Source: Halanaerobium saccharolyticum
GTDB taxonomy: Bacteria; Bacillota; Halanaerobiia; Halanaerobiales; Halanaerobiaceae
Assembly: GCF_003259895.1 (NCBI RefSeq)
Contig: NZ_QLME01000011.1
Span: 1 to 64,000, forward strand
Direction of reading: 5' to 3'
Length of the DNA stretch: 64,000 nucleotides
Every line of letters begins with the position of its first letter. The first letter of the stretch is position 1. This document shows positions 8,758 through 59,233 of this stretch, one piece after another. A model generated the notes under the pieces. The model had not been told where the DNA came from and did not search any database. It saw only the letters and a list, made by a program, of their open reading frames with translations. A program made the position numbers and the translations under genes.

Positions 8758-8789
8758 AACTTAAGCAATTATTTAAATAATCACTCCGC

Positions 8790-8873
8790 ACAACTCCCTT
8801 CGCTGGTATTATCCAGATCAGGTCCAAAGGGTCAAAGCATCTGCTTTATCTCAACCAAAAGGCTCCCCTGTCA
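8790..8873 (-). promoter_or_regulatory. TPP riboswitch aptamer (thiC leader)
   Basis: Read on the minus strand, the segment has the conserved THI-box parts in order: ACAGGGGAGC, a variant TTGAGA in place of CTGAGA, GACCCTTTGGACCTGATC, GGATAATACCAGCG and AAGGGA. It precedes an intrinsic terminator and thiC. Confidence 0.95.
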
Positions 8874-8932
8874 ATATTCAATTTTCTGATTAAAGCTTAA
8901 TTTTTTAACTTACTAGTTTTGCGAACTCGACA

Positions 8933-9470: not shown

Positions 9471-9506
9471 ACCCTCCTGATTTGTGAGGAGCAAACCGGA
9501 GGGTTT
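9471..9506 (-). promoter_or_regulatory. SD-sequestering hairpin of thiT
   Basis: AAACCCTCC (9498-9506 on the minus strand) pairs with GGAGGGTTT (9470-9478). The second arm contains the thiT SD, eight bases from its ATG. Only a short U-run follows, so translational control is more likely than termination. Confidence 0.75.
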
Positions 9507-9509
9507 AAA

Positions 9510-9603
9510 GTCTTTATATAGCTACCTACGCCTGCATTACCAGGTTCAGGTTAATGGGTCGATGATTGCTCATCCTCTCAGCCTCCAGTTTGGCTCCCCA
9601 GTC
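9510..9603 (-). promoter_or_regulatory. TPP riboswitch aptamer (thiT leader)
   Basis: Minus-strand THI-box: GGGGAGCC, GCTGAGAGG, GACCCATTAACCTGAACC, TGGTAATGCAGGCG, TAGG. A second, independently diverged TPP aptamer 0.7 kb from the first, with a different expression platform. Confidence 0.95.
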
Positions 9604-9672
9604 TTTAATTTTTAAATCTAGTCATGTAGAAATCTCTATCTAGCTGTATTATACAATAGAAATTGAGATTAA

Positions 9673-16511: not shown

Positions 16512-17512
16512 TTAAATCACCTCTTTCATTTCATCTTGCTTGACTTCTGTTTGATCCTGCTGCCAGATTTTCAGTGCCTCTGGAAAAGGCTTTAAAGCTC
16601 TATCTAAAATTCCATGCAGCCAGGCAATTGCAATTCCATAATTAATTACCGGAATTCCCACCTTTTTTGCTTCCTCTAATCTTGATAAAACTTCCTTGCG
16701 GTTTAACATACAGCTGCCTCTTTCGACACTGTTTCAAAAGCCTGAGAATCTGTCACTACAATTTTAGGCTTCTTTTTCAATTTACTAATTTCGGAACTTA
16801 CTTCAGCTTTTTTAGTCACCAGAGCGGTTGCATTATGATCCAGAATATCTCTAATTGTCTGGACCTGAGGCAAAATTAATCTTCCTTTAGGTGCTGCACT
16901 GTCAATAGGGGTCACTAAAACTGCAACTTCTCCCGCATCGATTAAATCTCCCATAATTGTATCCCGGCTGTGGTCCTCCGGCATTTTTTCTGCCGTTTTT
17001 TCTCTAATTAAATCTATATTGATTTCAGCTTCTGCACTGGCTTTTATAAACTCCAGCTTATATTTTTCAAAAAATTGATTGAATTCTGCTGAAACTGCAG
17101 CCTGCTCTTTACTTTCTGAATCCAGCAGTTCGATTTTATTTAAAACAGTTATAAAGGGAATATCCCTTTCTTCAAATTCCCTGATCAGCTCAGCTTCGAA
17201 CTCTCCTGCCCCCTGGACAGCTGAAATAACCAGCAGTGCCAGATCAGTCTTCCGCATAATTTCCTTAGCCTTTTTGATCCGCATTTCTCCCAGCTCACCC
17301 TGATCATCAATCCCTGCTGTATCAATCATCATCACCGGTCCAATCGGCAGCAGTTCCATTGCCTTATAGACTGGATCAGTTGTAGTTCCAGGCTGGCTGG
17401 AAACAAGGGCCAGATTCTGATTTGTAAGTTTATTAATTAAAGAAGATTTACCAACATTTCGCCTGCCAAAAACTGCAATATGCGGCCGATCTCCCTTTGC
17501 TGTAGAATTCAT
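16512..17512 (-). pseudogene. hydF: hydF broken by internal deletion and frameshift
   Basis: HydF is the GTPase scaffold that carries the diiron precursor to the hydrogenase. The 5' part (16703-17512, 269 codons) has the Walker A GRRNVGKS, QPGTTTDPV, DTAG and NKIE GTPase motifs and the dimerization region, then ends early after TDSQAFETVSKEAAVC. A second frame (16512-16709) gives the normal HydF C-terminus, LNRKEVLSRLEEAKKVG and NYGIAIAWLHG. Just upstream of that ATG the same frame reads G-S-C-M, matching the G-G-C-M that normally leads into this part. About 70 residues, including the Cys and His ligands of the [4Fe-4S] cluster, are missing compared with the usual roughly 400. The start at 17512 is set by GAAGGAAG seven bases upstream. 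An assembly error is possible. Confidence 0.82.
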
Positions 17513-17614
17513 TTTTCCACTTCCTTCTTTATAATGGTTAATTAGCTTAAAATTAGTTGGACTGAAAAATACCATCAGTAAAATAGAAATAAACTTTATC
17601 CGTTAAGATTTTAG

Positions 17615-17909
17615 CTTTAGATTTTAAGTTATATTTAAATTTAAAATCGGAAAATATTTTAGCATCAAATTCTGTTCTGTGACTTAGAAAGATTAATTAG
17701 AAGGAGTTGATTATTATGATGATTAAATCTGACTGACAAACACGATGTTTGTCACTGACCGTGCCACAGGATGTGGCAATCGGGAAGGAAGTCAGATTTA
17801 AGCTGAAATAATAATCTTACTCCCTTCTTTAATCTTAATTTGGAGCAGATCAGAATTTGATGCTTGAAATATTAACTATTCTAAAATGATGACAGCTTAA
17901 AATCTAAAG
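17615..17909. repeat. 295-nt long inverted-repeat element with two-hairpin core (unknown)
   Basis: Two 120-base imperfect inverted arms (17615-17734 and 17790-17909) flank a 55-base core. Perfectly matching blocks are CTTTAGATTTTAAG (17615/17896), GCATCAAATTCTG (17662/17851), GATTATTAT (17709/17808) and TTAAATCTGACT (17723/17790). The core holds two triloop hairpins, stem GACAAACA with loop CGA (17735-17753) and stem TGCCACA with loop GGA (17762-17778). It lies between hydG and hydF, and one end covers the hydG stop codon. It could be a MITE-like foldback element or a structured RNA of the operon; it has no ORF. Confidence 0.75.
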
Positions 17910-19352
17910 GTACAAATCGTGCTCTCCATCTGTAATTGCATCAAGTTTATCAGCAATATTTTCAGCTAACTTTGGCTTATCATTTTCCAGCTTTTCCATC
18001 AGTTCCGATAGACATTGCTTACCATTTTTTCGACTTTCTTCTGTTCCGAAATCCTCTAAATATTCTTTGAAAGTCAGCATTGCATTGGGGCGACAGAACT
18101 CCTGAATCTTACCCGGTTTGGCCAGATCCATAAAGTCTTTTCCAGTCCGACCGAGACGATAACAGGCGGTACAGAAACTTGGAATATAACCATCTTTAGC
18201 AATCCCGGAAATAATCTCATCAATTGGACGTAAATCATGGAGTGAAAACTGGGCCAGTTCTTCCTTCTTGTTTTCCTTTTTCTCATAACCACCTGGGGTT
18301 GTCCGGGAACCGGCAGATATCTGAGAAACTCCATGCTCAAATAATTCATTTCTCATCTCTGTAGTTTCTCTGGTCGATAAAATCATCCCTGTATAGGGAA
18401 TTGCCAGTCTTAAAACTGCTACCAGTTTGCGAAAATCAGCATCTGATACTGGATAAGGAACTTCATCCAGAGGAGTTCCCGTAGCTGGATTAAGTCTGGG
18501 TACTGAAACTGTATGAGGCCCAACTCCCCACTTTTTATCCAGATACTCAGCATGTAAGAGCATTCCAATTACATCAAATTTATAATCATAAAGACCAAAT
18601 AGGGCTCCAATTCCTACATCATCGATTCCAGCTTCCTGAGCTCGATCCATCACCGAAAGGCGCCATTCAAAATTACTCTTGGGACCTGAAGGATGGAGTT
18701 TAGCATACTGTTTGCGGTTGTATGTTTCCTGAAAACAGGTATAGGTACCAATTTCAGATTCTTTAAGTTTTTTAAAGTCTTCGGTACTTAAGGGAGCAAT
18801 TTCTGCATTAATTCTTCTAATTTCTCCACCATTTTCAGTTTTGACATCATAGGCAGTTTTAATACTTTCTACAACATAATCAAGATCAGTCACAGGTGCC
18901 TCTCCGGTTAGAACAAGTAATCTTTTATGACCTTCCCGCTCTAAAGCCTCAACTTCATTTCTAATTTCAGTCTGAGTTAATTTTTTGCGATCAATCTGAT
19001 GATTGTCTTTGCGAAAACCACAGTAAAGACAGTCATTAACACACTGATTAGCAAAATAAAGAGGTGCAAAAATAACCAGCCGCTTACCGTAAATTTCTTC
19101 CTTAACTTTCCGGGCAGCTTCCAGAAAGCGATCAATCAGCTCTTCATCCTCAACCTGCAGTAAAGTTGCCGCCTCCACCGAAGTTATTCCCTTGAGCTCT
19201 AAAGCTTTATCCACAATTCTATTTACTTCCTTCTGATCCGGCTCTTTTGCCTCTGCCAGAATTCTTTCAATCTTTTCATCAGTTATATAGTCACAGACCT
19301 CAGTCCGATAATCCTCACCAAATTCTTCTTTAAAATAATTAATATTACTCAT
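17904..19352 (-). CDS. hydG: [FeFe]-hydrogenase maturase HydG
   Basis: A 482-residue radical SAM tyrosine lyase that makes the CO and cyanide ligands of the hydrogenase active site. The SAM cluster motif CVNDCLYC is at Cys104-Cys111, and the C-terminal auxiliary cluster motif CTAC...22 residues...C separates it from ThiH. It follows the TM1266-like gene and precedes hydF in the same operon. Its TAG stop lies inside the right arm of the palindromic element. Confidence 0.96.
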   Translation of the reverse strand: MSNINYFKEEFGEDYRTEVCDYITDEKIERILAEAKEPDQKEVNRIVDKALELKGITSVEAATLLQVEDEELIDRFLEAARKVKEEIYGKRLVIFAPLYFANQCVNDCLYCGFRKDNHQIDRKKLTQTEIRNEVEALEREGHKRLLVLTGEAPVTDLDYVVESIKTAYDVKTENGGEIRRINAEIAPLSTEDFKKLKESEIGTYTCFQETYNRKQYAKLHPSGPKSNFEWRLSVMDRAQEAGIDDVGIGALFGLYDYKFDVIGMLLHAEYLDKKWGVGPHTVSVPRLNPATGTPLDEVPYPVSDADFRKLVAVLRLAIPYTGMILSTRETTEMRNELFEHGVSQISAGSRTTPGGYEKKENKKEELAQFSLHDLRPIDEIISGIAKDGYIPSFCTACYRLGRTGKDFMDLAKPGKIQEFCRPNAMLTFKEYLEDFGTEESRKNGKQCLSELMEKLENDKPKLAENIADKLDAITDGEHDLYL

Positions 19353-19494: not shown

Positions 19495-19752
19495 TTACTC
19501 CACTTCTACCGAGGTCAAAGCCGATTTTAAATTAACTCCCGCCAGATTTCCCAGCTGACCTGTCATTGCTCCAATCTCATCCGGCGTTCCCTCTACAATT
19601 AAAGAAATCATTGATAGACCATGTTCAACTGAAGGAATTCCCATCCTTCCAATAATACAGTCCGCATTTTTACTTAAAATTTTATTAATTCGGTCACTTA
19701 CCTTTTCTCTCTTTTCTACAACAACTGCTACTGAGCCAATTCTTTTTTTCAT
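19495..19752 (-). CDS. TM1266-like iron-only hydrogenase system protein
   Basis: An 85-residue ACT/NikR-C-like ferredoxin-fold protein (RIGSVAVVVEKREKVSDRINKIL, IIGRMGIPSVEHGLSMISLIVEGT) of the family that precedes hydrogenase maturation genes and is thought to be regulatory. The ATG at 19752, with GGAGG nine bases upstream, is preferred to a longer reading that would run into the palindrome at 19788-19823. It is first in the hyd operon. Confidence 0.88.
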   Translation of the reverse strand: MKKRIGSVAVVVEKREKVSDRINKILSKNADCIIGRMGIPSVEHGLSMISLIVEGTPDEIGAMTGQLGNLAGVNLKSALTSVEVE

Positions 19753-19787
19753 CCTCGTTCCTCCATTAGTTGTGATATTTTTCTCTT

Positions 19788-19823
19788 GTACCAGGTACAA
19801 AAAGGCCTTTTTGTACCTGGTAC
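19788..19823. repeat. GTACC repeat, perfect 36-base palindrome (copy B)
   Basis: GTACCAGGTACAAAAAGG is followed directly by its exact reverse complement. It lies 35 bases upstream of the TM1266-like start, inside the presumed hyd leader, and shares its GTACC core with the repeats at 19380, 46681 and 50537. Confidence 0.8.
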
Positions 19824-59118: not shown

Positions 59119-59130
59119 TATTTCCTCCTT

Positions 59131-59200
59131 TTAGCAGCCGGCTATCTCAAGTTGAGATCCTCAGCTTTGTGCCCCTACCTCACGATAAGTTTACCTTTAT
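59131..59200 (-). promoter_or_regulatory. Cyclic di-GMP-I (GEMM) riboswitch
   Basis: On the minus strand the segment shows AGGTAAAC, a stem closed by a GTGA (GNRA) tetraloop, GGGGCACAAAGC and the terminal AGCCGGCTGCT, the ordered parts of a GEMM c-di-GMP aptamer. The SD AAGGAGG of the secreted-protein gene lies three bases beyond its last stem, so control of translation is likely. Confidence 0.78.
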
Positions 59201-59233
59201 TAAAAAGAGCTATTAACCCTTCTATGTAACTTT

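Follow-up and report, generated by a model that had tools for sequence, protein, structure and literature searches.

The palindrome between hydG and hydF in the 64 000 nt window of Halanaerobium saccharolyticum analysed here belongs to a hitherto undescribed family of mobile palindromes that occurs in several Halanaerobium relatives and reaches up to hundreds of copies; no description of the family was found in the literature searched, from whose coverage most subscription journals were absent. The element is not confined to the hyd operon, nor is it the only one of its kind, and we consider it likely to be an old and no longer mobile member of a non-autonomous, MITE-like family of mobile palindromes. 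The whole element, comprising two arms and a tip, was identified from its inverted repeat and fold at positions 17615–17909 (plus strand, as for all parts of the element below). Its arms at 17615–17734 and 17790–17909 reproduce the 120 + 55 + 120 layout given in an earlier note on this DNA. The four long perfect blocks described there were recovered in part: perfect pairing extends over 14 positions at the outer end of the arms and 12 at the inner end, whereas the middle two blocks require small bulges. Arm pairing placed the outer block at 17615–17628 on the hydF side and 17896–17909 on the hydG side, the latter containing, as claimed, the hydG stop codon TAG (17904–17906, minus strand). The core hairpins also match the earlier description, TGACAAACA-CGA-TGTTTGTCA and TGCCACA-GGA-TGTGGCA. 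Based on fold and alignment, hairpin 1 spans 17734–17754 with loop CGA (CACGA or CAGGA in the family) and hairpin 2 spans 17761–17783 with loop GGA (ACAGGA in the family). The covariance model R1 defined a conserved core of 46 pairs, comprising a three-way junction and rod, at 17702–17824, and an 18-copy conservation profile placed the part common to all Halanaerobium copies at approximately 17670–17851, running from the TGACTTAG motif via the tip to the ATTTGGA motif. Folding of 17575–17940 yielded −113.2 kcal/mol compared with a mean of −60.0 for refolded shuffles (z −12.7; 0/100 shuffles as stable). A terminator had been dismissed at the outset, and the sequence and fold indeed do not display a short GC-rich stem with a U-tract behind it. 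No Rfam covariance model, group II introns included, scored above its gathering score at 17615–17909, and no ORF or transposase was present within the family's elements (209–330 nt).

The flanking genes are both on the minus strand. The upstream gene in transcription is hydG (17904–19352; TIGR03955), which is adjoined by a TM1266-family putative hydrogenase regulator at 19495–19800. Downstream lies a hydF fragment (16703–17575; TIGR03918 positions 2–255 of 392) in which a 286 bp deletion between direct repeats of GGCAGCT, evident from comparison with genome G001, has shifted the reading frame. Another contig carries a further copy of hydF that is intact (G000:C1:33502–34680). The proposed link between the palindrome and the hydF break was not upheld, as the break is a deletion between these repeats roughly 1 kb away. 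Elsewhere in the window, two TPP riboswitches (8778–8879 and 9506–9610) are situated on the same strand about 700 bp apart, and a c-di-GMP-I riboswitch is present at 59130–59205 on the minus strand.

A DNA search identified six diverged relatives of the element's central part in its own genome, and searching with the 122 nt core model R1 raised the number of copies there to 11. Because only the best 22–58 candidates per genome were scored in the multi-genome R1 searches, copy numbers per genome from these are lower bounds. On this basis, R1 matches were present in at least 17/61 relatives, and a survey of the phylum identified patchy multi-copy sets in at least 7/159 genomes, among them G109 (at least 8 copies) and G147 (at least 22), which both belong to other classes. 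Named organisms with matches include two strains of H. saccharolyticum, H. kushneri and a MAG. The Halanaerobium copies sort into 14 site groups, many common to several species, adjoining unrelated genes such as hydG, purC, tyrS, rpsI, cheV and those encoding KDPG aldolase, an M29 peptidase and a glycosyltransferase, among others (names read from sequence, with only the hyd genes tested against family models). At hydG–hydF itself, the whole element is present in G000 and G001, only the hydG-side arm in G004 and G005, a remnant in G009 and G003, and a simple short gap without the element in G007 and G008. Similarly, five species (G003, G009, G004, G005 and G007) have a simple gap between purC and purF. 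The earlier note had held that a simple gap in related strains together with a lack of other copies would count against its reading; such gaps exist in some relatives, yet other copies abound. Two sites displayed more than one element or part thereof. In G004 (L052 1501–1806), two tandem elements of different type are found behind a CaCA-type antiporter gene, and at the cheV site (L191, L186) several additional half-arms have accumulated beyond the element, on its far side, as successive events might have left them. No target duplication was visible at the hyd site, nor was one demonstrated for any other Halanaerobium copy.

The family is dispersed, multi-copy and accompanied by empty sites, and in two other genomes, G039 and G147, its elements carry terminal inverted repeats and 6–7 bp AT-rich target duplications and measure about 209–222 nt. 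These features bear out the foldback MITE that had been suggested as one possibility, and the element in G039 and G147 is a textbook MITE. The terminal repeat GATTATACTGCAAAAAGCTAATTTT matched G039 577 + 583 times, compared with 0 + 1 for the reversed pattern, giving about 580 terminal-repeat pairs in a 3.56 Mb genome. Within a 400 kb sample, 53 such pairs were mostly about 209 nt apart, and 36 R1 core matches were found in the same sequence. Copies outside an Rhs cluster were nearly identical, measured ~220 nt and ended sharply (GATTATACTGCAAAAAGCTAATTTT ... AAAATTAGCTTTTTGCAGTTTAATC), and more than half of these were flanked by 6–7 bp direct repeats, yielding a target-duplication score of 143 against a shuffled mean of 35 and maximum of 68. 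Sites were intergenic in 50/51 cases and orientation relative to genes was even (49 vs 45). G147 carries a related terminal repeat, GATTCTGGTGCAAAAAGT, with 6–7 bp flanking repeats apparent by eye, whilst G109 elements have GGCTCT... ends and similar flanking repeats, also by eye. All three genomes contain shortened, core-less derivatives. Terminal repeats in these genomes have fixed ends, whereas Halanaerobium arms are inverted but their ends are locus-specific. A search for an autonomous partner with matching ends found none in 0.8 Mb of G039, 26 G109 loci and the G147 list, nor any transposon-sized spacing between terminal repeats. Two further impressions from G039 were discarded. A replication-strand bias suggested among the matches listed was gone upon direct reading of 800 kb, and a 2.1 kb near-tandem series, considered as an RNA-gene cassette, was instead an amplified Rhs-tip cluster with the element as passenger. 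This cluster (G039:C1:1943–1982 kb; L070–L072) consists of ~15 units in near-tandem arrangement; each is roughly 2.1 kb long and contains an Rhs core-tip fragment, a different C-terminal end, small ORFs and a passenger palindrome.

Comparison of Halanaerobium sites revealed that only about 180 nt is common between them, whilst the outer arms differ from locus to locus but remain complementary to one another. Four loci clearly carry within the far arm an inverted copy of the 3′ coding end of the host gene, with scores that no mismatched control reached: hept (52 nt; 51.5 vs control maximum 34), ssnA (39 nt; 44.5 vs 28), pepM29 (27 nt; 44 vs 32.5) and purC (22 nt; 32 vs 28.5). The same test was borderline for tyrS and CaCA and found no such copy at hydG, KDPG, cheV, rpsI and glcD. 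The captured purC end is host sequence, because the purC coding end is identical in species lacking the element. The gene at the KDPG site takes its final codons and stop from the element, and its last residues differ between two element types. Different element types (65–74 % identical) were found to occupy a single site, against the species tree. The ssnA copy of G000 is a chimera, with its left half as in G001 and its tip and right half from another element, and its outer arms now pair poorly (−67 vs −104 kcal/mol). Inversion of the tip was rejected as the cause of this core switch (direct 120 vs inverted 43). Across species, same-type copies at one site frequently resembled each other more closely than did the genes flanking them (O4, 100 % vs 88 %; an arm of the hyd element, 105/108 between species vs 83 % for hydG), so plain decay of an immobile insertion is insufficient to account for them. 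Exchange and template switching between palindromes fit better than simple inheritance, although they do not fully explain the facts. One alternative is that the unit that propagates is the forked tip, which would be recognized as folded ssDNA or RNA and would seed fold-back synthesis at the 3′ ends of genes; the arms would then be made from the host gene and thereafter serve as an address. If true, this would explain the locus-specific gene-end arms, the tip swaps at fixed sites and the likeness across species above that of neighbouring genes; we nonetheless regard it as unlikely.

The tip is conserved across classes, with a three-way junction, two hairpins, fixed loops and covarying stems. 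Seven aligned copies, namely the hyd element and its six relatives in the same genome, share the junction, the loops CACGA and ACAGGA, and an internal-loop pair AACTTGATGA / TGAATCTTAGTT. They also contain a tandem G-A motif that in some copies is swapped as a unit for G-C/C-G. Double changes were observed in 27/46 pairs of this alignment, whereas shuffles gave 13 and slid controls no more than 10. With 64 aligned matches these rose to 45/46 pairs and the covariation was 0.647 (0.186 shuffled; 0.104 best slid), although this alignment leans towards the model because it was fitted to R1. Covariance scoring thus indicated that the stems covary family-wide. Such covariation might reflect a functional structured RNA kept by the host at gene 3′ ends as an mRNA stabilizer or processing element, for example one setting the HydG:HydF ratio. 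Consistent with this, Halanaerobium copies sit right behind stop codons in one direction at 11/14 sites (11/13 co-directional sites, p 0.022), same-type copies exceed flanking genes in conservation, and the plus-strand fold is the more stable in 41/43 copies. The more stable strand is, however, antisense to the genes, the host genes share no common function, close species have empty sites and G039 elements lack an orientation bias. Wobble pairs are not favoured across the family (GU 65 vs AC 48), and orthologue pairs more than 90 % identical displayed about 10 WC>GU, 22 WC>AC and 22 WC>mismatch changes against about one compensatory change. Because these recent one-sided changes break pairs freely and without bias, there is no sign of current selection for pairing or of host RNA use. 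Neither the single genomic context nor the pair-preserving orthologue changes of a cis-regulatory RNA were seen, and a host-maintained RNA is in our estimation quite improbable. The earlier idea of a processing element specific to the hyd operon fares no better, as copies follow unrelated genes.

We also considered a single-strand element moved via hairpin recognition by an HUH/Y1 transposase, as for REP or IS200/IS605 derivatives, in which the loops CACGA and ACAGGA would be recognized. The fixed loops and tandem G-A motif amid varying stems are in line with this, as is the strand-specific stability. Evidence to the contrary comes from G039 and G147, in which target duplications of 6–7 bp are clear and terminal repeats long, and from core-less derivatives with terminal repeats at other sites. 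REP/BIME and IS200/IS605 elements are marked by the lack of a target duplication, whereas duplications are present in the relatives, and HUH/Y1 hairpin-recognizing systems are not known to make 6–7 bp target duplications or long terminal repeats. This renders the explanation very improbable. That the palindrome is an assembly artefact or a chance occurrence deserves practically no credence: palindromes do tend to be misassembled, but the separately assembled G001 has the same element at the same site with 97 % identity, which refutes an artefact, and a fold z of −12.7 speaks against chance.

A MITE-like palindrome remains our preferred reading, against which stand the lack of a visible target duplication at the hyd site, the lack of an autonomous partner in the sequences searched, the orientation bias in Halanaerobium and the over-conserved same-type copies. 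Under the MITE-like reading, the element was presumably moved by a DDE-type transposase acting in trans, and the structure of the tip would be important, or faithfully reproduced, only during the mobile phase. Once settled behind a stop codon, the palindrome may become a hot spot for fold-back template switching, which would re-match the arms, copy the neighbouring gene's end into the opposite arm, delete halves and swap tips between elements. Paired changes might then arise partly from one arm being copied off the other and partly from the need for the tip fold and loops during mobility; template switching alone is not credited, mainly because the loops stay fixed. The hyd location is incidental. 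The operon would gain a hairpin RNA of about 250–300 nt between hydG and hydF, and any effect on expression would likewise be incidental.

In sum, these palindromes form a new MITE-like family whose conserved forked tip is unusual and whose arms capture host sequence. Strong covariation, usually taken as proof of a functional RNA, is seen here in an element that appears to be mobile and unused by its host. The many copies at shared sites allow template switching to be separated from selection. The family additionally documents mobile palindromes taking up the 3′ coding ends of host genes in inverted form. Like the prokaryotic MITEs reviewed in PMC10969869 (e.g. QMITE of Coxiella, ERIC and BOX), its elements are short and non-coding, with terminal inverted repeats, target duplications, AT-rich intergenic sites and a very stable transcript fold. 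Unlike these, the forked tip is structurally conserved across classes and the Halanaerobium arms are locus-specific with inverted host gene ends. REP/BIME palindromes with their RAYT transposase are similarly extragenic, often located behind genes and possess a conserved foldable sequence, but REPs measure 20–40 bp (PMC3733652) compared with 200–330 nt and target duplications in this family. Hairpin template switching has been described as a source of paired changes (PMC8794818), and the present elements resemble quasipalindromes (PMC8794818, PMC7202029) in that inverted repeats are created and re-matched and paired changes appear without wobble intermediates. Quasipalindrome template switching is, however, a mutation process rather than a mobile family, and in the present case its substrate would be a mobile palindrome, with coding sequence captured in the process. 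Finally, the 5S rRNA expansion segments of Halanaerobium and Halobacteroides (PMC7812874) are likewise mobile-looking helical inserts from the same order, but by their description these are set apart, being unbranched helices inside the 5S rRNA, where expansion segments overall span 13–109 nt.
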